Source: Flavonifractor sp. An112 (GTDB taxonomy: Bacteria > Bacillota > Clostridia > Oscillospirales > Oscillospiraceae). Taken from it: DNA of 64,000 bases. The stretch covers positions 62,001-126,000 of the forward strand of contig NZ_NFLU01000004.1 in assembly GCF_002161085.1 (NCBI RefSeq), read 5' to 3'. The position numbers were made by a program, and so were the translations under genes. The first letter of the stretch is position 1. The number at the start of each line of letters is the position of its first letter. Shown piece after piece: positions 50,179 through 59,699 of this stretch. Under the pieces are notes generated by a model. That model was given only the letters and a program-made list of their open reading frames with translations, had not been told where the DNA came from and ran no database searches.

Positions 50179-51669
50179 ATGGAGCGTGACCAGGCCATTG
50201 CCAAGCTGGTGTCCTACGCCGTGGAAAAGGGTCTTGTCCGGCCCGAGGAGCGGATTTGGGCAGTAAACACCCTGCTGGACATCCTGCGGGTGGACAGCTG
50301 CGCCCTGCCGGAAGTGGGACAGGTAGGGGAGGAGGAACTGCCCGCCATTTTGGGCGCCCTCACCGACGACGCCTGTGCCCGGGGAATGCTGCCCGAGGAC
50401 ACCGTAACTTACCGGGACCTGTTTGACACACGGCTTATGGGTGCCCTTACGCCTCGTCCCGCCCAGGTCATTGATACCTTCAACGACCTGTACCGTCAGG
50501 ACCCCAAGGCGGCTACCGATTGGTACTATAAATTCAGCCAGGACACCAACTATATCCGCCGGGACCGCATTGCCAAGGACGTGCAGTGGAAGGCCCAGAC
50601 CGAGTATGGCGAGCTGGACATCACCATCAATCTGTCCAAGCCGGAGAAGGACCCCAAGGCCATTGCGGCGGCCCGCAACCTGCCTGCTTCCGCCTATCCC
50701 CGGTGCCAGCTGTGTGCCGAGAATGAGGGCTATGCCGGACGGGTAAACCATCCCGCCCGCCAGAACCACCGCATTGTGCCCATTACCATTAACGGTTCTC
50801 CCTGGTTTTTGCAGTATTCTCCCTATGTGTATTACAATGAACACTGCATCTGCCTGAACAGTGTCCATACCCCCATGAAGATCGACAAGGCCTGCTTCGG
50901 CAAGCTGCTGGACTTCGTGGGTCAGTTCCCTCACTACTTCGTGGGGTCCAACGCCGACCTGCCCATTGTAGGCGGCTCCATCCTGGCCCACGACCATTTC
51001 CAGGGCGGCCGCTACACCTTCGCCATGGAGAAGGCTCCGGTGGAGACCCCCTTCACCTTCCCGGGCTATGAGGATGTGCAGGCCGGCATTGTCAAGTGGC
51101 CCATGTCGGTGGTGCGCCTTACCTGTGCCGATCCCCAGCGGCTCATCGACCTGGCCGACCGCATCCTGACCAGCTGGCGGGGCTATACCGATGAGAGCGC
51201 TTTCATCTACGCCGAGACCGACGGTGAGCCTCACAACACCATTACCCCCATCGCCCGGCGGCGGGGGAGCGACTACGAGCTGGACCTGGTGCTGCGCAAC
51301 AACATCACCACCGAGGAGCATCCCCTGGGCGTCTATCACCCCCATGCCGAGCTCCACCACATCAAGAAGGAGAACATCGGCCTCATCGAGGTCATGGGCC
51401 TGGCGGTACTGCCTGCCCGGCTCAAGACTGAACTGGCGGCGGTGGCGGACAAGCTGGCACAGGGCGGCGACCTGCGCTCCGACCCGCTGACCGCACCCCA
51501 CGCTGACTGGGCGGAGGGCTTTGCCTCCCAGATTACTCCTGACAACGCCCTGGACGTGGTCTACCACGAGACCGGCCTGGTGTTTGCCAAGGTGCTGGAG
51601 CACGCCGGCGTTTACGCCCGTACCCCGGAGGGTAAGGAGGCCTTCCTCCGTTTCCTGAGCCAGGTGTAA
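50179..51669 (+). CDS. galT: UDP-glucose--hexose-1-phosphate uridylyltransferase, class 2
   Basis: Exchanges UMP between UDP-glucose and galactose 1-phosphate. 496 residues, the larger Firmicutes class 2 GalT, not the E. coli type (348). LCAENEGYAGRVNHPARQNH, YYNEHCICLNSVHTPM and GGSILAHDHFQGGRY (the histidine cluster) are family motifs. Two bases after galE. A perfect terminator follows. Confidence 0.95.
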   Translation: MERDQAIAKLVSYAVEKGLVRPEERIWAVNTLLDILRVDSCALPEVGQVGEEELPAILGALTDDACARGMLPEDTVTYRDLFDTRLMGALTPRPAQVIDTFNDLYRQDPKAATDWYYKFSQDTNYIRRDRIAKDVQWKAQTEYGELDITINLSKPEKDPKAIAAARNLPASAYPRCQLCAENEGYAGRVNHPARQNHRIVPITINGSPWFLQYSPYVYYNEHCICLNSVHTPMKIDKACFGKLLDFVGQFPHYFVGSNADLPIVGGSILAHDHFQGGRYTFAMEKAPVETPFTFPGYEDVQAGIVKWPMSVVRLTCADPQRLIDLADRILTSWRGYTDESAFIYAETDGEPHNTITPIARRRGSDYELDLVLRNNITTEEHPLGVYHPHAELHHIKKENIGLIEVMGLAVLPARLKTELAAVADKLAQGGDLRSDPLTAPHADWAEGFASQITPDNALDVVYHETGLVFAKVLEHAGVYARTPEGKEAFLRFLSQV

Positions 51670-51692
51670 GACAGTTCAACTTCATACGGCTG

Positions 51693-51727
51693 AAATCCCC
51701 CGGCGCGATTAGCGCCGGGGGATTTTG
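51693..51727 (+). terminator. Terminator of galKET
   Basis: AAATCCCCCGGCGC pairs perfectly with GCGCCGGGGGATTT around GATTA, followed by T. Confidence 0.9.
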
Positions 51728-51780
51728 CATATGCGGCTCTGTGAAATTCGGATATTCTGTAAGGTGCGTCCATCTTTCTA

Positions 51781-51809
51781 TTGTCAGAGAGGAATAAATT
51801 GGGTATACT
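51781..51809 (+). promoter_or_regulatory. Promoter of the dynamin-like GTPase operon
   Basis: TTGTCA (51781-51786), 17 bases, TATACT (51804-51809). It is the only convincing promoter for the next 7.7 kb of same-strand genes. Confidence 0.75.
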
Positions 51810-51885
51810 GGAAGAGATAAAATTGCAGAATCCAGTCGGAACTGGTCGGAACTGTGGGCCGGTGGCGGCACGCGGAGGGAAGACG

Positions 51886-53271
51886 GTGAAACGAGGAAAG
51901 AAATGGTGGGCGGACCGGCCTGCCCAGGCCGAAACAGCCCTTTCCCAAGACGCAATCAGCGGTATAAATCCAGAGATGAGTGCAGAGAGGAGCATGATCA
52001 TGTTTGCGGATATGTTGGACAACTTCATGGACCTGTTTGACCTGGATGACCTGCCGAAAGAGCCGGACGATGGGCTTATGTCCCAGGCGGGAGAGCAGGA
52101 GCAGAACAGTGACCCGGTACTGGTGGACCTGGACGGGGACGGAATCCCCGATATGGTGGTCCAGCAGCAGGGGTTGGATTTGGACGGGGATGGCATTCTG
52201 GAGACCCAGCTGGTCAACCAGGCTTTTGACCTGGATGGAGACGGCATCATCGATGCCCAGCGGGTAAGTGTGGGTGTGGACGGTGACCTGGACGGAGTTG
52301 CCGATCTGAATGTGGATACCGTTGCTGTGGACCTAGATGGAGACGGTCTGGCTGATTATCAGCAGATGGGTATGGATCTGGATGGGGATGGTGTGTTTGA
52401 ACGCCTGGACCAGTTTGTGGATCTGGACGGAGACGGCGTCTTTGATATGGCCCATACGGCCATGGACACAGATGGAGACGGCCGCTTCGATGCATTCCAG
52501 ATGACGGAGGACCTGGATGGCGACGGCGTGTTCCACGGTGTGGAGCTTGCGCCCGACGACCGTGAACCTCAGGCGGACGACCAAAATCGTCCCGATGATC
52601 AGGACGATCAGATCTTTGACGACGAGGCGGACCCCTTCTACGAGCCTGAACCTCAGGCGGAAGTGGAGCCTCAGCCCGACCCCGGCTATGGCGCAGTTCC
52701 CAATTTTGAACCCTTTGATCCCGACCAGGCTGACCCGAGTAAGGTGATCGGCGATCCGGAAAGCGCCATGGAAAACTGGCACTGGCAGGAGACTGGAAGC
52801 AGTTGTGCGGTGGCTTCCCAGGAGTTTGTGCTGGAGGAGCTTACCGGACAGGAATTTGAGGAGTCGGACCTGCGGGATCTGGCCGAGGCCAACGGCTGGT
52901 ATATGCCCCAGGCGGGTACCCCCATGGACGACGTGGGCAATATTCTGGAGCATATGGGACTGGACGTGGAGCGCAGCCAGGGCAATTCCATCGATGATAT
53001 CGCTCAATGTCTCCAGGACGGCGGTCAGGTCATCGTGGCGGTGGACAGCAGCGAGCTGTGGGAAGGGGTCAATGACGACAACTTCGGCCCCGGTATGCAG
53101 GCCGATCACGCGGTACAGGTCATTGGCATCGACTATACCGACCCGGATGAGCCTATGGTGATCCTCAATGACCCCGGCGCCTCCAACGGCGGCGGCGCTC
53201 AGGTCCCTCTGGACGAGTTTATGGACGCCTGGGAGGACAGCGGCTGCTATATGGTGGAGGCTTACGCCTGA
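51886..53271 (+). CDS. Calcium-binding-repeat protein with C39-like cysteine peptidase domain
   Basis: First gene of the dynamin operon, 461 residues from GTG 51886 (GGAGGGA five bases before it); ATG 52000 is an alternative giving 423. After an N-terminal leader, residues about 75-225 hold nine DxDxDG loops (VDLDGDGIPDM, FDLDGDGIIDA, VDLDGDGVFDM, MDTDGDGRFDA and similar), typical calcium-binding sites. An acidic Pro/Asp/Glu linker leads to a C-terminal papain-like C39 fold: TGSSCAVASQEFVLEEL (Cys nucleophile), ADHAVQVIGID (His), VILNDPGASNGGG (Asp/Asn). No signal peptide or membrane helix, so it is probably cytosolic. Confidence 0.75.
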   Translation: MKRGKKWWADRPAQAETALSQDAISGINPEMSAERSMIMFADMLDNFMDLFDLDDLPKEPDDGLMSQAGEQEQNSDPVLVDLDGDGIPDMVVQQQGLDLDGDGILETQLVNQAFDLDGDGIIDAQRVSVGVDGDLDGVADLNVDTVAVDLDGDGLADYQQMGMDLDGDGVFERLDQFVDLDGDGVFDMAHTAMDTDGDGRFDAFQMTEDLDGDGVFHGVELAPDDREPQADDQNRPDDQDDQIFDDEADPFYEPEPQAEVEPQPDPGYGAVPNFEPFDPDQADPSKVIGDPESAMENWHWQETGSSCAVASQEFVLEELTGQEFEESDLRDLAEANGWYMPQAGTPMDDVGNILEHMGLDVERSQGNSIDDIAQCLQDGGQVIVAVDSSELWEGVNDDNFGPGMQADHAVQVIGIDYTDPDEPMVILNDPGASNGGGAQVPLDEFMDAWEDSGCYMVEAYA

Positions 53272-53309
53272 GGGAACAGACGTGTCATTGGTGAAAGGAG
53301 CAAAGTGCG

Positions 53310-53840
53310 ATGCAAGAGATGCAGATACCATCCGTTTATCAGCTGATCCGCAGCTTTAACCGGGGCGAATTCCGGCGAAAAAGCATTCCCCAGGAACTGG
53401 TGTCCGGCTGGCCTGCCATCCGGCGGCTGGGCAAGACCCTGTGTGTGACCATCCCCTATTATGCCCGGGGACGGGCGGGGGATAAGACCATCCTTTATCC
53501 CCTGTACTGTTCGGCCACAGTGCCCCTGGGCAACCCGGATATGCTGTTGGATTATACCGTTTATCCCCATCAGCAGGGCTGGCAGGACCTGGACTGGTCA
53601 AAGCCTGTGGGATCTTTTCCCCATGAGGCCCTTGCGGGGATAGGGCGAAAGGAATACCAGGCTTTGTGTGCCCGCTTGTATGACTATTACGATGAGATGG
53701 TACGGGCCATTCTTCAGGGTAAGCCCTTTACTGCCCGGGAGGAGATGGGGGCTCTGTTCTGCCGTCTGATGGAGCCGGACCAGTATCCCCAGTATCTGCG
53801 GATCGATCAGAGATTTTATCGCTTCTTCTGTCCCATCTGA
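53310..53840 (+). CDS. Hypothetical protein in the dynamin operon
   Basis: Soluble protein of 176 residues that I do not recognise. It is rich in aromatic and basic residues (tyrosines in IPYYARGRAGD, RLYDYYDEMV, RFYRFFCPI) with a mixed alpha/beta look, no signal peptide, no membrane segment and no obvious catalytic motif. ATG 53310 follows AAAGGAGCAAAGTGCG, a strong RBS. The 38-base gap to the previous gene and 41-base gap to the first dynamin gene lack a terminator, so it should be co-expressed with both. A role as adaptor is a guess. Confidence 0.65.
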   Translation: MQEMQIPSVYQLIRSFNRGEFRRKSIPQELVSGWPAIRRLGKTLCVTIPYYARGRAGDKTILYPLYCSATVPLGNPDMLLDYTVYPHQQGWQDLDWSKPVGSFPHEALAGIGRKEYQALCARLYDYYDEMVRAILQGKPFTAREEMGALFCRLMEPDQYPQYLRIDQRFYRFFCPI

Positions 53841-53881
53841 AGGCACGGAAGAGATTATCATGGAGAAGAGGGTGGGCGGAC

Positions 53882-55645
53882 GTGTGGAAAGAGGAATATA
53901 CCCAGGCCTGCAGTATTTTGGCGGCAGGGCGCTATGCTAAGCTGGCCAAGCAGGCGGAGGGGCTCCATCGCTGGGTGAATGCCCGTAAATTCAGCGTAGT
54001 GGTGGTAGGAGAGTTCTCCCGAGGTAAAAGCCGCCTTATCAACGAGCTGCTGGACCGGCCGATTTTGCCGGTCAGGACCCTGCCCACGACCGCCCTGCGT
54101 ACCACAGTGACCTACCATAATAAGGAGATGCTGGTTCATGTAGGCCCTGACGGAAAAAAGACGGGCTACCCCCTGAAGGAGCAGGCATGGCAGCGGTTTC
54201 TGGCCGGAGAGGGCAGAGCGGACCCGCAGGGCGCCCTCTATGTGGGCGTGGACATTCCATGGCTGGGTCAGCACCGGCTGGAGCTGGTGGACACTCCGGG
54301 CACCGGGGATCTTGTGGAGCGGCGGACCATCCTGGCAGAGGAGGCCCTCACTGGTGCGGACGGCGTGATCATTGCCGTTTCGGCCCGTACGCCGGTCAGC
54401 GGCACGGAGCGCAAATGGATCCAGAGCCGGCTGCTGGCCCGGGAAGTGCCCCGCATCATGGTGGTTATCACCAAGCTGGACCAGATCGAGGAGGAATCCC
54501 GGGCCAGGGTAGTGGCCCATATCCGGGACAAGGTCCGGGAGATCAGTCCGGCGGTGGAGGTGTACGTGGCCCATGACTGGAGCGGGGAAGAGGGAGTCCC
54601 CGGCGGCCGAGAGCAGATCATTAGACGGCTGATGGACTGGGCGGATGCCCCGGAGCACAGCCAGCTGCGGGAACAGGCGGCCCGGGACCGGCTTGCCGGG
54701 CTGTTGACCATAGCGGCCGACGATTTGCGCTGCAGGGCGGAGCAAGCCAGGAATCAACGAACCCAAAAGGCTCAGGACCAGCAGCAGGCAGCCAGACAAG
54801 CCGCAGAGCAGGCGGGACAGCTGTGGGACATGATGATTTCCGAACTGAAGGACCGGGCCCCAGCGTGTATCACCAGTATCCGCAGCTTTGCCGCTGAGAA
54901 GGAGCAGCTGCTGCTGGAGAAATTCCAATATGAGCTGTCCCATGTCAGTGAACCCAAGCGGTGGTGGGAGGAGGACTACCCCTACCGGATGAAAATGGAG
55001 ATGACCGGGTTTTCCGCTGCCATGGAGCAGGAGTTTGCCAGGACCTTCAGCGATGATCTTCGGGGAATCAACGAGACTATGGCCCGCAACTACCGGCAGA
55101 CCCTGTCGGTGGGCCGCATCGGCATCATGGACAAGGATCTGATCGATATCGGCAGCGGCGAACAGATCGCCGGACTGGAGGACATCCAGAAGAAAAAGGT
55201 CAACTTTCAGGTAGGACGAACCCTGGCTACTGCCGCCGGGTATGTACTGCTGGCCGGTACAGGCGGTCCAGCTGCCATTGTTACCAATCTGTGCCTGGGC
55301 GCGGGCAGCACGGTGCTGGGTGAGAAGGTATTCCGCTCCAGTGTGGACGTGCAGAGGGGCAAGGTGCTGGAAGCGGTCAAGGGACAGGTGGAGCAGTTTA
55401 CCAAACGGGCAATTTCCGCCGCTGAGCAAAACATCAATCAGGCCTACCGCAGGATGTGCGGCGAGATCATGCAGCGGAAGGAACTCTGGTTGGATACACA
55501 GACCAGAAAACCGGCGGAATCCATGGCGGACGAGCGGGGCGGCAGCCTAGACAAGCTGCTGCTGGAGACAGAGAACCTCATCGCACGGCTGACCAGACAT
55601 CAAGGTGGAGGTACGGACGATGGAGCACTCTGTCAAGGCGGTTGA
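53882..55645 (+). CDS. Dynamin-like GTPase 1
   Basis: Bacterial dynamin-like protein, 587 residues. G1 VVGEFSRGKSRLINELL (near residue 40), G2 threonine in LPTTALRTT, G3 LVDTPGTGD (near 138) and a complete G4 VVITKLDQ (near 200). A long helical stalk follows (Gln/Ala-rich coiled coil near 290-320), then a hydrophobic, Gly/Ala-rich segment around 445-480 (LATAAGYVLLAGTGGPAAIV) that could be the membrane-inserting paddle. Starts at GTG 53882. Overlaps the next GTPase gene by 26 bases. Dynamins remodel or tether membranes; here the partner GTPases are encoded alongside. Confidence 0.85.
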   Translation: MWKEEYTQACSILAAGRYAKLAKQAEGLHRWVNARKFSVVVVGEFSRGKSRLINELLDRPILPVRTLPTTALRTTVTYHNKEMLVHVGPDGKKTGYPLKEQAWQRFLAGEGRADPQGALYVGVDIPWLGQHRLELVDTPGTGDLVERRTILAEEALTGADGVIIAVSARTPVSGTERKWIQSRLLAREVPRIMVVITKLDQIEEESRARVVAHIRDKVREISPAVEVYVAHDWSGEEGVPGGREQIIRRLMDWADAPEHSQLREQAARDRLAGLLTIAADDLRCRAEQARNQRTQKAQDQQQAARQAAEQAGQLWDMMISELKDRAPACITSIRSFAAEKEQLLLEKFQYELSHVSEPKRWWEEDYPYRMKMEMTGFSAAMEQEFARTFSDDLRGINETMARNYRQTLSVGRIGIMDKDLIDIGSGEQIAGLEDIQKKKVNFQVGRTLATAAGYVLLAGTGGPAAIVTNLCLGAGSTVLGEKVFRSSVDVQRGKVLEAVKGQVEQFTKRAISAAEQNINQAYRRMCGEIMQRKELWLDTQTRKPAESMADERGGSLDKLLLETENLIARLTRHQGGGTDDGALCQGG

Positions 55646-57377
55646 GTTTCAATTATATGAGGATTTGGTCCAGCTGCAGAAGATGCTGGAGGTCATGGAG
55701 CTGGATCCGGCCCTGACGGAGCGGTTAGAGGAGTGTAAAGAGCTGATTCGCACCAAGCGCTACCGCGTGGCGGTGATGGGGGAGTTCAAGCGGGGAAAGA
55801 GTACCCTCATCAACGCCATGTTGGGCCTGCCGGTGCTGCCGGCGGACGCTACCCCCACTACTGCCACCGTAAACCGTATTACCTACGGAGTGGAGGAGCG
55901 GGCTGTGGTGCGCTTCCGGGACGGTCGGGAGCAGGAGATCCCGGTGGACCGGCTGGCGGACTATGTGACCAAGCTGACGGAGGAGGGCCGGGCGGTCTCT
56001 GAGACCGTACAGGAGACGGTGCTGTACTATCCCAGCGTTATCTGTCAGAACCATATTGAGATCATTGACACTCCGGGCCTGAACGACGAGCGGGAAATGA
56101 CCCGCATTACCCTGGAGACCCTGCCCCAGGTGGATGCGGTCATTATGCCCATCCACGCCCGGGTACCCTTCAGCAGCACCGAGCGGGACTTTGTTTGTCA
56201 GATGCTGGAGAGCAAAAACATCGATGACATTATCTTCGTCATGACCTTTCTGGACCAGCTGGACGAGGACGACTATGTGTACGAGGACTACGTGGAGGCG
56301 GTGAGCCGCCGCATCCGGCAGGAGGTTTTTGGGGCGCTGGAGGAACGCCGGGCCTCAGAAGAGGTGCTGCGGAAGGCCCACCGAGTTCTGGACCAGGTTC
56401 GGCTCAGCGGTGTCTCGGCCTCCCTGGCCCTGAAGTCCTTCGTGAGCAACCAGAAAAAGCTGCTGGCTCAGAGTCATTTTGAAGGTTTTCTCAACGACCT
56501 GAAAAAGACTCTGGCAGGCCGCCAGATGGAGTGTGCCGTCTGGAAGGCGGCTGCCGGTATGGAGTGGGTAGTGACCCATCTGGAGGAGGCCCAGCGGGAG
56601 CGGGAGGGCTTTTTCCGGCGGGAAGAGGATAGACTTCGGGAGATGCAGCGGCGTACCCAACGCTTTTTTGGGGATTTTTCCCAACAGCTGGAGGAACTTT
56701 TCCGGCAGCAGCCGGACGTCATGGAGCTGGTGCTGGAGCCCCTGCGTCAGGAGGAAGAGAAGGCGACAGCCGCTGTGATCCGGGCGCTGAGCGGGGTCAG
56801 GGTTGCGGAACATATGGCAGTATTCCAGGCGATCAATCCGGTGATCTTGCAGATCCCGGAACAGATGGATGGCTGCTGGCAGCAACAATTAAAACCCATG
56901 CTACTCAGCCGGCTTGCCCAGGTGCTGGAGCAGATCAGCGTGGTGGGCAACCAGGCCGGTGTGGATGAGCCGCTGATGAAGGAGTACGGCTATCTGTTGC
57001 AGGAAGCAGAGGATACATGGACTGCCCAGAGCTTTGTTTGGGTGGACGGCCCTTATCCCAACGTGCCGGATCTGGCTCACTGCAACTTCATCCGCTATTT
57101 CCGCCCCTATTTGCAGCGCTCGGTGCAAGCCATGGCCCAGCGAATTGTGGATGCTGCCGAGACGGTGAAGGGACGCTGTTGTGCTCAGCTGCCTGAGCGC
57201 AATGAACCGCTGCGGGAACGCCTAGCCCAGAGACAGCAAGAGCAGTATCGCCAGTTGGACGGCCAGCGCAGGGCCTACGAGCAGAATCTGGACAATCTGC
57301 GCCAGACGGTCAATCAGGCCTGGAGTAATACCCAGGCTCTGCTGCGGGAGTGGGAGGACGGTCCCAGAGTTGGATAA
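55620..57377 (+). CDS. Dynamin-like GTPase 2
   Basis: Second dynamin-like protein, 585 residues. G1 VMGEFKRGKSTLINAML, G2 ATPTTATVNRITYG, G3 IIDTPGLNDERE; the expected G4 reads VMTFLDQLDE, so the TKxD lysine is replaced by Phe. The rest is a mostly helical stalk with Arg/Gln-rich coiled coils (EREGFFRREEDRLREMQRR, ERLAQRQQEQYRQLDGQRR). No clear hydrophobic membrane segment is visible, unlike its neighbours, so it may need them for membrane contact. ATG 55620 follows GGAGGTACGGACG and lies inside the end of the previous gene. Confidence 0.85.
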   Translation: MEHSVKAVEFQLYEDLVQLQKMLEVMELDPALTERLEECKELIRTKRYRVAVMGEFKRGKSTLINAMLGLPVLPADATPTTATVNRITYGVEERAVVRFRDGREQEIPVDRLADYVTKLTEEGRAVSETVQETVLYYPSVICQNHIEIIDTPGLNDEREMTRITLETLPQVDAVIMPIHARVPFSSTERDFVCQMLESKNIDDIIFVMTFLDQLDEDDYVYEDYVEAVSRRIRQEVFGALEERRASEEVLRKAHRVLDQVRLSGVSASLALKSFVSNQKKLLAQSHFEGFLNDLKKTLAGRQMECAVWKAAAGMEWVVTHLEEAQREREGFFRREEDRLREMQRRTQRFFGDFSQQLEELFRQQPDVMELVLEPLRQEEEKATAAVIRALSGVRVAEHMAVFQAINPVILQIPEQMDGCWQQQLKPMLLSRLAQVLEQISVVGNQAGVDEPLMKEYGYLLQEAEDTWTAQSFVWVDGPYPNVPDLAHCNFIRYFRPYLQRSVQAMAQRIVDAAETVKGRCCAQLPERNEPLRERLAQRQQEQYRQLDGQRRAYEQNLDNLRQTVNQAWSNTQALLREWEDGPRVG

Positions 57378-57449
57378 GATACAGAGAACGACCGGAAAAG
57401 GAGACCCTCTTTTCCGGCGCCATTGACAGAGAGAAAGGCGGGAACACCT

Positions 57450-59519
57450 ATGGCAGAGGAGAAGAACAGCCAGGAGACTTCATTCAGCGGATTTATCAAC
57501 TATAAGCAGACCATGACCAGCATTACTACCGATCTGAAGAAACTGCGGGAGTACAGTGAGAAGCTGGATCTGAACGGCAACATCAATGGCATTGACGAGA
57601 TACTCAAGCGGATGGCCAACGACAACTTCAACGTGGCCATTGTGGGTGAGTTCAAGCGGGGCAAGAGCACCGTCATCAATGCCCTGCTGGGCAAAAACAT
57701 CCTGCCGGTGGACGTGCTGCCTACCACCGCCACCCTCAATAAGATCACCTACAATGTGACGCCCTTTGTCACCGTGGAATATAAGGACGGACGCAAGGAG
57801 CAGATCGGCATTGAGGAGCTGGACAACTACGTCACCAAGCTGACCCGGGAGAGCGAGGAGCGGGCCAAGACCATCAAGGAGGCAGTGGTTTATTATCCTA
57901 TCAACTACTGTAAAAACGGTGTTACCATCATCGATACCCCCGGCCTCAACGACGACGCGGCTATGACCGAGGTGACCATGTCGGTACTGCCTACCATTGA
58001 CGCCGCCCTGATGGTTATCATGGCTCAGGCGCCCTTCTCCGAGTCGGAGCGGGACTTCCTGGAGAGCAAGATCATCACCAGCGATCTGGGGCGGGTGCTG
58101 TTCGTGGTCACCGGCATCGATCTGCTGGACGAGGAGGATGTGGATCGGGTCCTGGAGAACATCAAGCGCCGCATCCAGGAGCACGTGCTGAAGAAGGCGG
58201 AAAGCGTCTATGGCGTGGATTCCCGGGAGTATCAGACCTATCAGCGCAAGCTGGGCAACATCAATCTGTACGGACTGTCCGCCAAGAAGGCGCTGAAGGC
58301 CAAGGTCAAGGGCGATGTGCAGATGTTGGAGGACAGCTGCTTCCCCACGTTTGAAGCGGCACTGGAGAAGTTCTTGTCGGAGGAGCGGGGAGCGATCACC
58401 CTCAGCGTGCCGGTGAGCCGGATCAAAACCGCCTCCATGGAGCTGGTGAAGGCCATTCAGCTGCGGATGAGCAGCATGGACATGATGGCCAGCGAGTTTG
58501 AAAAGAAATATACAGCTGCGCTGGGGGAGATTGAGTCGGTCCGAAAGGAGCGCAGCCGGGAATTTGATACCGTCAATGAAAATGCCGACAAGGCCTTTGC
58601 GGGCCTGCTGCCCATGATCGACAGTTACTGGGATACAGTGGAGCAGGCGGTATCCGATGCCATTGACGCCTATCCCATCAGCAACTCCGACCTGAAGAAG
58701 GAAAATGCCGCTGCCACGGCCCAGGCGCTGACCAACCAGGTGAAAAACGCGGTGGCCAAGGTAAGCCAGACGGTAAGCGAGCGCATCCAGAACGCCATCA
58801 ATGTGGCACTGGAGGGGGAGGCCCAGCGCCTGGCTGGCTTTGAGAATTACTTCTTCCAGGCCACCGAGCGCATCCATGGAATGTTTATGCCCCAACGTAC
58901 CAGCGCGTCGGGAGGAGACTCGGTGATCGGTGTGGTAGCCAACTCGCTGGTTGGTTTCGGCATCGGCGGTGTGTATGTAGGCTTCAAGGAGGCCGGCTGG
59001 AAGGGGGCGCTGCTGGGCGGCGCCACCGGTGTGGGCGGCATGGCCCTGGGCAACATCGGTGTGTTCGGCCTGCTGATGCCTGCGCTGGCCATTCCGATCA
59101 CCTGGCCGGTAGTGATTGTTGGCTCCCTGGTGGTAGGTACCCTCAGCCTTTTCAGCAGTAAGTGGGTGGTGGACAAGACCTTCTCCCGAGAGAAGATCGA
59201 GACCTACAAGGCGTCCTTCAAGGCGCAGGTGCTGGAAGAGATCCAGCGGATGAAGGGTGAGAACAACTTCGCCGAGACGGTGCGCCGGCAGGTGGACGAG
59301 GCGTTTGGTGCTCTGAAGGAGAAGATCCGCAAGGAGACTGAAAATATTCTGGAGGATACCCAGAACCAGCTGACCCAGATCAAGGTGGAGCTGGCCCAGC
59401 AGCAGGTATCCGGCTCCAAGGAGAAGGAACAGCTGGATGAGATGCTGGAGAGCATCAACCAGATCTGTGTCCGGGCAGAGGAACTGGAACAGCAGTTGGT
59501 AGGTATTTTGTCCCGATGA
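57450..59519 (+). CDS. Dynamin-like GTPase 3 with membrane-spanning hairpin
   Basis: Third dynamin-like protein, 689 residues and the largest. G1 IVGEFKRGKSTVINALLG, G2 LPTTATLNKITYN, G3 TIIDTPGLNDDAAM, and a degenerate G4 FVVTGIDLLDEED. It is closest to GTPase 2 in the G domain. Residues about 490-575 form two or three hydrophobic helices (VVANSLVGFGIGGVYVGF, GLLMPALAIPITWPVVIVGS), a plausible membrane anchor or paddle, followed by a C-terminal coiled coil. ATG 57450 follows GAAAGGCGGGAA; the open frame before it lacks an RBS. It ends the operon at a strong terminator. Confidence 0.86.
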   Translation: MAEEKNSQETSFSGFINYKQTMTSITTDLKKLREYSEKLDLNGNINGIDEILKRMANDNFNVAIVGEFKRGKSTVINALLGKNILPVDVLPTTATLNKITYNVTPFVTVEYKDGRKEQIGIEELDNYVTKLTRESEERAKTIKEAVVYYPINYCKNGVTIIDTPGLNDDAAMTEVTMSVLPTIDAALMVIMAQAPFSESERDFLESKIITSDLGRVLFVVTGIDLLDEEDVDRVLENIKRRIQEHVLKKAESVYGVDSREYQTYQRKLGNINLYGLSAKKALKAKVKGDVQMLEDSCFPTFEAALEKFLSEERGAITLSVPVSRIKTASMELVKAIQLRMSSMDMMASEFEKKYTAALGEIESVRKERSREFDTVNENADKAFAGLLPMIDSYWDTVEQAVSDAIDAYPISNSDLKKENAAATAQALTNQVKNAVAKVSQTVSERIQNAINVALEGEAQRLAGFENYFFQATERIHGMFMPQRTSASGGDSVIGVVANSLVGFGIGGVYVGFKEAGWKGALLGGATGVGGMALGNIGVFGLLMPALAIPITWPVVIVGSLVVGTLSLFSSKWVVDKTFSREKIETYKASFKAQVLEEIQRMKGENNFAETVRRQVDEAFGALKEKIRKETENILEDTQNQLTQIKVELAQQQVSGSKEKEQLDEMLESINQICVRAEELEQQLVGILSR

Positions 59520-59525
59520 AGCAGA

Positions 59526-59563
59526 AAACGGAAGGCACACCGTTGGGTGTGCCTTCCGTTTGT
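59526..59563 (+). terminator. Terminator of the dynamin operon
   Basis: AAACGGAAGGCACAC pairs with GTGTGCCTTCCGTTT around CGTTGG. Confidence 0.88.
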
Positions 59564-59572
59564 TATCGGCAT

Positions 59573-59612
59573 AAAAAGACGTCGGAGCAAGCGATACAAA
59601 GCCTGCTCCGAC
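59573..59612 (-). terminator. Terminator of the minus-strand tRNA-Leu
   Basis: On the minus strand GTCGGAGCA pairs with TGCTCCGAC, followed by GTCTTTTT, immediately beyond the tRNA 3' end. Confidence 0.85.
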
Positions 59613-59613
59613 G

Positions 59614-59699
59614 TGGTGCCGGTGGTGGGACTCGAACCCACACGGTGTTGCCACCAACGGATTTTGAATCCGTCACGTCTACCATTCCATCACACCGGC
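59614..59699 (-). tRNA. tRNA-Leu (anticodon CAA)
   Basis: Type II tRNA with encoded CCA on the minus strand. The acceptor GCCGGTG pairs with CACCGGC. The anticodon arm ACGGA-TTCAAAA-TCCGT gives CAA; the variable arm is long and the T loop is GGTTCGAGTCC. Confidence 0.95.

Follow-up and report, generated by a model that had tools for sequence, protein, structure and literature searches.

A C39-like repeat protein and a small protein of no known family as candidate partners of dynamin-like GTPases in Flavonifractor and at distant loci

An operon of Flavonifractor sp. An112 raises the question of what activates bacterial dynamins, which to our knowledge is still open. The analysed stretch, here called the window, comprises 64,000 nt of contig NZ_NFLU01000004.1 (62,001-126,000, forward strand). 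It contains five co-directional genes on the plus strand, with galT (50179-51669) on one side and tRNA-Leu(caa) on the other. They encode a protein with nine DxDxDG motifs and a C-terminal C39-like papain-fold domain (g1, 423 aa, 52000-53271), a 176-aa protein of no known family (g2, 53310-53840), and three dynamin-like proteins (DLPs), all GTPases: DLP1 (587 aa, 53882-55645), DLP2 (585 aa, 55620-57377) and DLP3 (689 aa, 57450-59519). An original prediction made from the sequence alone had listed these five genes, and all are present. The question is whether they belong together and, if so, what the first two may do for the GTPases.

The association of the C39/repeat protein and g2 with DLPs is well supported. 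Homologues of g2 were found at seven loci: the window, genomes G361 (locus L014), G311 (L023), G397 (L039) and G419 (L040), contig L015, and an Anabaena plasmid (L037). These loci span Clostridia, a contig of a metagenome-assembled genome binned as Prevotella (L015) and the Anabaena plasmid. A DLP gene lies directly downstream of g2 in all seven (gaps of -4 to 184 nt), and a gene for the C39 protein directly upstream in all six where this side is visible (gaps of 14 to 68 nt); the L015 contig starts 110 nt before g2, so the C39 position cannot be seen there. The suggestion that the genes belong together is thus borne out at distant loci. A recurrence of the first two genes without the GTPases was seen in none of the six loci. 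It is approached by a lone repeat-less C39 homologue, with neither DLP nor g2, in G761 and by a weak C39 match on plasmid NC_008271, which has no IniA-like DLP.

The remaining genes vary. Three DLPs follow g2 in the window, G419 and L015 (no C39 gene visible), and the G361 contig is cut after the second DLP. Three consecutive dynamin family genes also occur on a Lysinibacillus plasmid (L108:5963-12629), with the predicted resistance gene fexA a few genes away. Three DLPs in a row, which the original prediction had regarded as unfamiliar, are therefore found elsewhere. Its expectation that the order of five genes is conserved holds for G419, the only fully visible case with three DLPs, and does not hold for near relatives, where the operon was not found. 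In G311 and G397 the order is Hsp70-Sel1 (twice in G397), C39, g2, DLP, GrpE, DLP. On the Anabaena plasmid Hsp70 is followed by DO-GTPase genes (a weak match and one above the Pfam cut-off), a further pair of genes, C39, g2 and two consecutive DLPs; a DLP of this locus matches IniA among solved structures (E 1.6e-32). Four of the nine proteins from Hsp70 to the second DLP (L037:2891-8975) end in WF (DWF, NWF, NWF, EWF), possibly a shared docking tag. In G419 the operon appears to be led by two adjacent transmembrane proteins with beta-lactamase-like domains (L040:2066-6183), one having a kinase-like N-terminus that scores below the Pfam cut-off. The pair is a possible envelope sensor. An Hsp70 identity was considered for the gene upstream in G419 and rejected, as Pfam shows the beta-lactamase-like domains and the kinase-like stretch instead.

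The module is rare. Strong matches to g2 were found in five of the 391 genomes of the class, where An112, G311 and G361 are query rows and G397 and G419 are new, and in one of the 299 genomes of the phylum (An112 itself). Full-length C39 homologues occur in 2 of 398 genomes at the phylum level (An112, G761), 2 of 245 in the order (An112, G284) and, in two families, 2 of 21 and 1 of 16. The G284 contig ends 70 nt past the C39 gene, so module membership is not readable there. These counts leave aside weak partial C39 matches (7 genomes of the phylum, 16 of the order and, at the family level, G207 and a second place in G397), three weak g2 matches (E 5e-4 to 9e-4; one of them, in G104, showed no module gene), and repeat-only matches in G335 (L025, no module gene) and G278. 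In G761 the repeat-less C39 gene is followed by one for a 791-aa protein with no Pfam family above the cut-off (L084:10351-13741). The g2 protein of the window groups with those of G311 and G397 (98/100). For the C39 protein the same two genomes are nearest to the window by path, and no well-supported set holds the window. From these comparisons the C39-g2 pair seems to be the constant part and the DLP sets the changing one, and this speaks for a split into regulator and effector.

The nine DxDxDG motifs of g1 occupy residues 43-176, with a spacing of 17 and then 15 residues; composition shuffling gave a mean of 0.3 and a maximum of 4 motifs in 5000 trials. Such motifs are read as Ca2+-binding loops. 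The protein is very acidic, with a net charge of -102, and looks cytosolic. Its C-terminal part matches Pfam Peptidase_C39_2 with E 8.4e-5. The same family is found above the cut-off in six of nine g1 homologues (L023, L024, L037, L039, L041, L043) and below it in three (L014, 23.6 bits; L084, 19.7 bits; L040, no match). The predicted structure has a mean pLDDT (predicted local distance difference test score) of 66, with most blocks of the C39 domain at 85-95 and some at 58-76, and it places a strand, at moderate confidence, after each repeat. A Foldseek search with this model yields C39-like and papain-family peptidases, the best being 3erv (E 6e-5, probability 1.00). The residues of a papain-type site, Q263, C269, H370 and D391, are invariant in all eight aligned sequences from Clostridia, Anabaena and Rhodococcus. 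By hydropathy, no signal peptide or transmembrane stretch was seen in the 12 proteins examined, g1 among them. According to the model, g1 is likely to carry a papain-fold domain with an oxyanion Q and a C-H-D triad, and is a putative cysteine peptidase. It shares the fold and the Q-C-H-D set with Peptidase_C39_2 and other papain-fold peptidases such as 3erv. What sets the g1 type apart from these is its tie to DLPs, the DxDxDG repeats that it carries in the same chain or that a neighbouring gene encodes and, judged by hydropathy, the lack of a signal peptide.

No Pfam, NCBIfam or PADLOC family matches g2 at E 0.1. Its predicted alpha/beta structure is confident (pLDDT 89.6, predicted template modelling score 0.85) and has no significant neighbour in the PDB by Foldseek (best E 0.55). 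It resembles one predicted phage structure, ctMAv2 (probability 1.00, template modelling scores 0.60/0.65, E 2.3e-3), and a stretch of 35 residues matches PHROG (E 8e-4). These two matches hint, no more, at phage relatives of g2. No match in phages was found at E 0.01, and the g2 of L014, searched for a viral origin, gave matches only at E 4 to 10. Foldseek also lists some cystatin-type chains, none of them significant (E 0.86 or worse), and a role of g2 as a cystatin-like inhibitor of the C39 protein is not claimed.

All three GTPases contain Dynamin_N well above the Pfam cut-off of 27 bits (62.9, 94.1 and 111.8 bits; E 5e-17, 1.3e-26 and 4.5e-32 for DLP1, DLP2 and DLP3). The G1 and G3 motifs are intact in each (GEFSRGKS and DTPG in DLP1). 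The G4 motif is TKLD in DLP1, TFLD in DLP2 and TGID in DLP3, so that the lysine is lost in the latter two. DLP2 and DLP3 share 39.5% identity across 286 aa, and DLP1 is 31-35% identical to either over about 190 aa. The genome has seven Dynamin_N matches in all. The three strong ones (E 2.5e-17 or better) are those of the operon; the other four have E 1e-4 or worse, and three of these pass the cut-off only when joined with neighbouring frame pieces. BDLP1 is the best solved relative of DLP2 and DLP3, whereas DLP1 matches 5owv (presumably Cj-DLP1/2), BDLP1 and IniA. IniA is matched by all three (E 6e-7, 1e-14 and 6e-10) and is the best solved relative of none.

Hydrophobic, paddle-like segments had been claimed for the first and third GTPases and denied for the second. 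The maximum of Kyte-Doolittle hydropathy over 19 residues is 2.07 in DLP3, a strong candidate paddle, and 1.15 in DLP2, which has none by this measure; in DLP1 it is 1.47, a weaker candidate. By the crude rule that a paddle-less DLP has a maximum below 1.2 in its C-terminal part, at least one such protein lies beside one with a paddle in six of nine loci (window, L037, L039, L040, L041, L043), a recurrence that would suit the putative mixed assembly of the original prediction. The mixed pattern was not seen in L015 (three DLPs, all with a paddle), L014 (two seen, both with) and L023 (second DLP 1.92, at residue 251).

Relatives of the three GTPases lie in different contexts. Long matches of DLP1 occur only in G361, L015 and G419, are 29-30% identical and look orthologous. 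For DLP2 and DLP3 the resemblance is to another kind of unit, which occurs in a different genus of the order and on record MT836781 (40-44%), and the closest relatives of DLP3 are in L107, L122 and L123 (40-44%). Relatives of DLP3 (35-44%) form a recurring unit of a DLP, a protein of 325-346 aa and a second DLP (L107:175-4984; L122:7952-12888; L123:7944-12907; L124:1-3990). The middle protein is M48-like in L122 and L123, scoring below the Pfam cut-off. MT836781 (L107) is labelled as a bacteriophage, a label that is unverified, and has a phage-type integrase gene near the DLP3 relative. On a cyanobacterial plasmid (L109:4586-9935), a DLP gene adjoins cas1 and cas2. Two genomes of the same genus, G017 and G018, contain other clusters of weakly dynamin-like GTPases, to which no type was assigned (L026, L027). 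Weak DLP1 matches in G017, G018 and G045 (L026-L028) were set aside, as they belong to other GTPase clusters or, in G045, to an Era-like GTPase with a KH domain.

A split version of the module exists on actinobacterial plasmids. A search of plasmids with the C39 protein yields 28 records, one from Anabaena and 27 from Rhodococcus/Prescottella, of which three were opened (L041, L042, L043). These loci encode Hsp70, a repeat-less C39 protein, a sigma factor and a pair of GTPases, with a different order in L043; in L042 the annotation breaks the first GTPase into pieces. All three have a separate protein rich in DxDxDG-type motifs, encoded beside the C39 protein in L041 and L043. Here g2 was not found by profile. 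The first GTPase of L041 matches IniA (E 4.6e-14), its sole solved relative at E 0.001. By coordinates, an IniA-like DLP lies within 10.4 kb of the C39 gene in 27 of the 28 records; conversely, the C39 gene is found in 27 of the 35 plasmid records with an IniA-like DLP (of 72,556 records). The plasmids are related, and therefore these 27 records amount to a few independent cases.

The genes of the operon are closely spaced (gaps of 38, 41, -26 and 72 nt from g1 to DLP3). GTG 55605 and TTG 57423 are possible alternative starts of DLP2 and DLP3. The longest open reading frame of g1 starts with TTG 51781; its true start is most likely ATG 52000, giving 423 aa, because a GAGGAG sequence ends 7 nt upstream of it and the shorter N-terminus fits the G311 homologue. 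The single promoter and single terminator proposed earlier fare differently. A hairpin with a U-rich tail at about 59524-59563 (plus strand) has a folding energy of -32.7 kcal/mol (z -6.6) and stands as a rho-independent terminator; a simple terminator scan did not list it and the folding energy test did. The promoter-like site TTGTCA-17-TATACT at 51781-51809 (plus strand) is not evidence, because six sites of this type were observed in the scan and 4.8 +/- 2.2 are expected by chance. Beyond the terminator and outside the operon lies tRNA-Leu(caa) (59614-59699, minus strand), the edge of a variable site. The neighbours in the window are galactose genes, the tRNA, a lipoprotein-like gene (g6) and a two-component pair.

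The operon is an insertion or a loss at this variable site. A full-length match to DLP1 was found in none of the 19 other genomes of the genus (11 of them less than 90% complete), two having weak matches of 24-25%, whereas g6, beyond the tRNA, is present in all 20 genomes including that of An112. G006 has both flanks on one contig, only 218 nt apart: the galT flank aligns at 91.2% DNA identity over 2668 nt and the tRNA flank at 91.1% over 1991 nt. This is an empty site where the window has 7.9 kb. The gap between galT and tRNA-Leu(caa) (window 51670-59613; L064, L065, L066) is thus empty in G006, contains a GGDEF gene in G011 and the dynamin operon here, and in G015 genes for SSB and SpaA-type proteins lie next to the tRNA. 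The absence of the operon from near relatives is read as mobility. Composition does not mark it as foreign, because its GC content (0.589) differs little from the value for the window (0.604). Direct repeats shared by the flanks are no longer than 10 nt, and no mechanism of integration is claimed.

Among known systems, bacterial DLPs mostly come as operon-encoded pairs (PMC6104087), and the window, like the pairs of BDLP1, Cj-DLP1/2, DynA and IniA/IniC, has Dynamin_N GTPases side by side. It differs in that its DLPs number three and are preceded by a DxDxDG/C39 protein and g2, and neither partner is mentioned in the available text of PMC6104087. Predicted conflict systems combine a DO-GTPase (GAP1) with Hsp70/GrpE, alongside peptidase-cascade systems (Kaur et al. 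2020, PMC7159879). They share with the present module a GTPase switch linked to Hsp70/GrpE or to peptidase logic, and the Anabaena locus has a DO-GTPase gene. The words 'dynamin' and 'C39' are absent from the available main text of PMC7159879. Membership in such systems was rejected, as none of the seven window proteins scanned against Pfam contains a DO-GTPase or GAP1 family. In the 'chaperone group' of cyanobacterial DLPs a gene with a DnaK domain lies downstream of the DLP gene (PMC5827413); this neighbourhood of a DLP and DnaK is the point of likeness. No C39 protein, repeat protein or g2 occurs in the available text of that paper, nor do the words 'protease' and 'operon'. A likeness to iniBAC is seen in L041-L043, which combine IniA-like and second GTPases, Hsp70, a repeat protein and a C39 protein. 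On the other hand, Hsp70 is missing from the window operon, in which no IniB-like gene was recognised, and its DLPs bear only a distant likeness to IniA. Membership in iniBAC was rejected, since every window DLP has a solved relative that matches it better than IniA does. For IniB itself, g1 and g2 matched none in Pfam or NCBIfam at E 0.1, and no IniB profile was searched by name.

The LeoABC family (LeoA and LeoBC in PADLOC), which we take to be Eleos, also has adjacent DLP genes. It comprises three genes, of which leoB and leoC encode one split DLP (PMC4159319). The likeness lies in the three adjacent genes and in the match of DLP3 to PADLOC LeoA (E 2e-21, the best of the window); DLPs from differently arranged loci reach 2e-26 and 1e-21. 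The NCBIfam model DLP_LeoA_gen gives 25.7 bits for DLP2 and 24.5 for DLP3 against a cut-off of 325, with no match reported for DLP1. In each of the window DLPs, the G1, G3 and G4 regions are encoded within a single frame, unlike the split LeoB/LeoC, and LeoABC has no C39 protein or g2. Membership was rejected, as the LeoA scores are far below the cut-off and the window genes are unsplit. By these sequence-based tests, the module is not an Eleos/LeoABC, iniBAC or DO-GTPase system. DLP pairs, a DLP beside DnaK, and GTPase-Hsp70-GrpE combinations are known already, whereas the C39/repeat protein and g2 are perhaps undescribed as partners of DLPs. No paper joining a C39 protein to bacterial dynamins was among the matches listed, which is weak evidence of absence, since most subscription papers and bioRxiv preprints lie outside the search.

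What might the pair do for the GTPases? The preferred reading, with a rough probability of 0.45, is that the operon is a horizontally mobile module responding to envelope or membrane damage, in which a cytosolic, putative Ca2+-responsive cysteine protease controls the assembly of DLPs. Resting free Ca2+ in bacteria is low. In the resting cell it would be too low to order the acidic repeats of g1. A breach of the membrane by a cell-wall inhibitor, a pore former or an exiting phage would let Ca2+ in, the repeats would fold, and the C39 domain would become active. It might then cleave or release a brake on the GTPases, this brake being g2 or one of the DLPs, and the freed DLPs would assemble on the membrane, either resealing or remodelling it. 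At loci that have Hsp70/GrpE, these chaperones would disassemble the DLP polymer. The scenario in full, with a calcium-gated intracellular protease switching on DLPs at a breach in a calpain-like repair, g2 as a regulator of possibly new fold, exchangeable DLP sets and recycling by Hsp70/GrpE in some lineages, is doubtful as a whole; the comparison with calpain comes from general knowledge. Tethering, fusion or cutting of membranes is described for DLPs of this type, namely IniA (PMC6715688), DynA (PMC8844932) and Cj-DLP (PMC6104087), and iniBAC is inducible by isoniazid, its IniA cutting membranes (PMC6715688). Envelope stress is favoured because the Rhodococcus and Anabaena DLPs resemble IniA and the G419 operon is led by beta-lactamase-like transmembrane proteins. 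Functional coupling is further supported by Hsp70 and GrpE within the cluster at some loci, and by repeats that are either fused to the C39 domain or split from it.

Several observations weigh against this reading. The C39 domain of g1 is just below the Pfam cut-off (23.6 vs 24 bits), and the L040 homologue has no Pfam match at E 0.01. The repeat region is modelled at moderate confidence only (blocks of 54-75), and the number of DxDxDG motifs in fused proteins ranges from 2 to 29, a variation not required of a tuned sensor. The C39 homologue of G761 (L084) lacks repeats, g2 and a DLP in the 19 kb fetched, and plasmid NC_008271, with the weakest C39 match, has no IniA-like DLP. Genes of the beta-lactamase type were seen in one locus only, and the window operon itself has no Hsp70, GrpE or regulator. 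Within the window, no feature favours envelope stress over phage.

An anti-phage function, in which g1 would serve as sensor or trigger and the DLPs would come into play at a late stage of infection, is a possible if rather unlikely alternative. The model would be DynA of Bacillus subtilis, which delays phage lysis (PMC8844932). The patchy spread, the variable site beside a tRNA, the relatives on plasmids and the DLP3 relative near an integrase gene on MT836781, with its unverified bacteriophage label, are consistent with defence. So are the PADLOC scores for LeoA and LeoBC and the Anabaena DO-GTPase genes (one above the cut-off, one weak), whose family belongs to predicted conflict systems (PMC7159879). 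However, DLPs of other arrangements reach LeoA scores as good as or better than the best of the window. Among ten flanking proteins, of which L084 contributed one and the module loci of Clostridia nine, a single PADLOC match was obtained, to a protein that Pfam identifies as a sensor histidine kinase of the ordinary type. No relatives of g1, g2, DLP1 and DLP3, the proteins searched, were found in viral_contigs (DLP2 was not searched), g2 has none in phages at the threshold given above, and the galactose, tRNA, lipoprotein-like and two-component genes around the operon do not suggest a defence locus.

Two further explanations fare worse. A role of the DLPs in forming membrane vesicles, like that suggested for LeoABC and the mycobacterial Ini proteins, with the C39 protein processing cargo, is improbable. 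Deletion of leoA or leoB about halves vesicle cargo (PMC4159319), and vesicle synthesis is stated to require Ini proteins (PMC10903876), but the operon has no gene for cargo, an exporter or a leader peptide, and g1 lacks a signal peptide by hydropathy. Very improbable is a passive association, in which the C39-repeat/g2 genes and the DLP genes are accessory genes travelling together on mobile DNA without functional coupling. All of them are indeed accessory, the DLP sets differ between loci and one C39 homologue stands alone, yet hitch-hiking can hardly explain why the genes stay adjacent, in one orientation and with short gaps, at all seven g2 loci, or why the repeat/C39 arrangement occurs both fused and split. 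Least probable of all is that g1, rather than a protease acting on the module, is a C39-fold enzyme of another kind, such as an amidase or transpeptidase (the Foldseek list includes a pseudomurein endoisopeptidase), or an acidic-repeat scaffold organising the DLP polymer, as its charge might suggest, since a scaffold alone does not need the invariant Q-C-H-D set.

If the preferred reading of a Ca2+-responsive protease module is correct, the protease and g2 pair of Clostridia and a cyanobacterium, and the protease/repeat/Hsp70 version of actinobacteria, would be concrete candidate regulators of DLPs. Ca2+ may be a trigger for these GTPases, and this possibility is testable: the five proteins of the operon would suffice for it in vitro.

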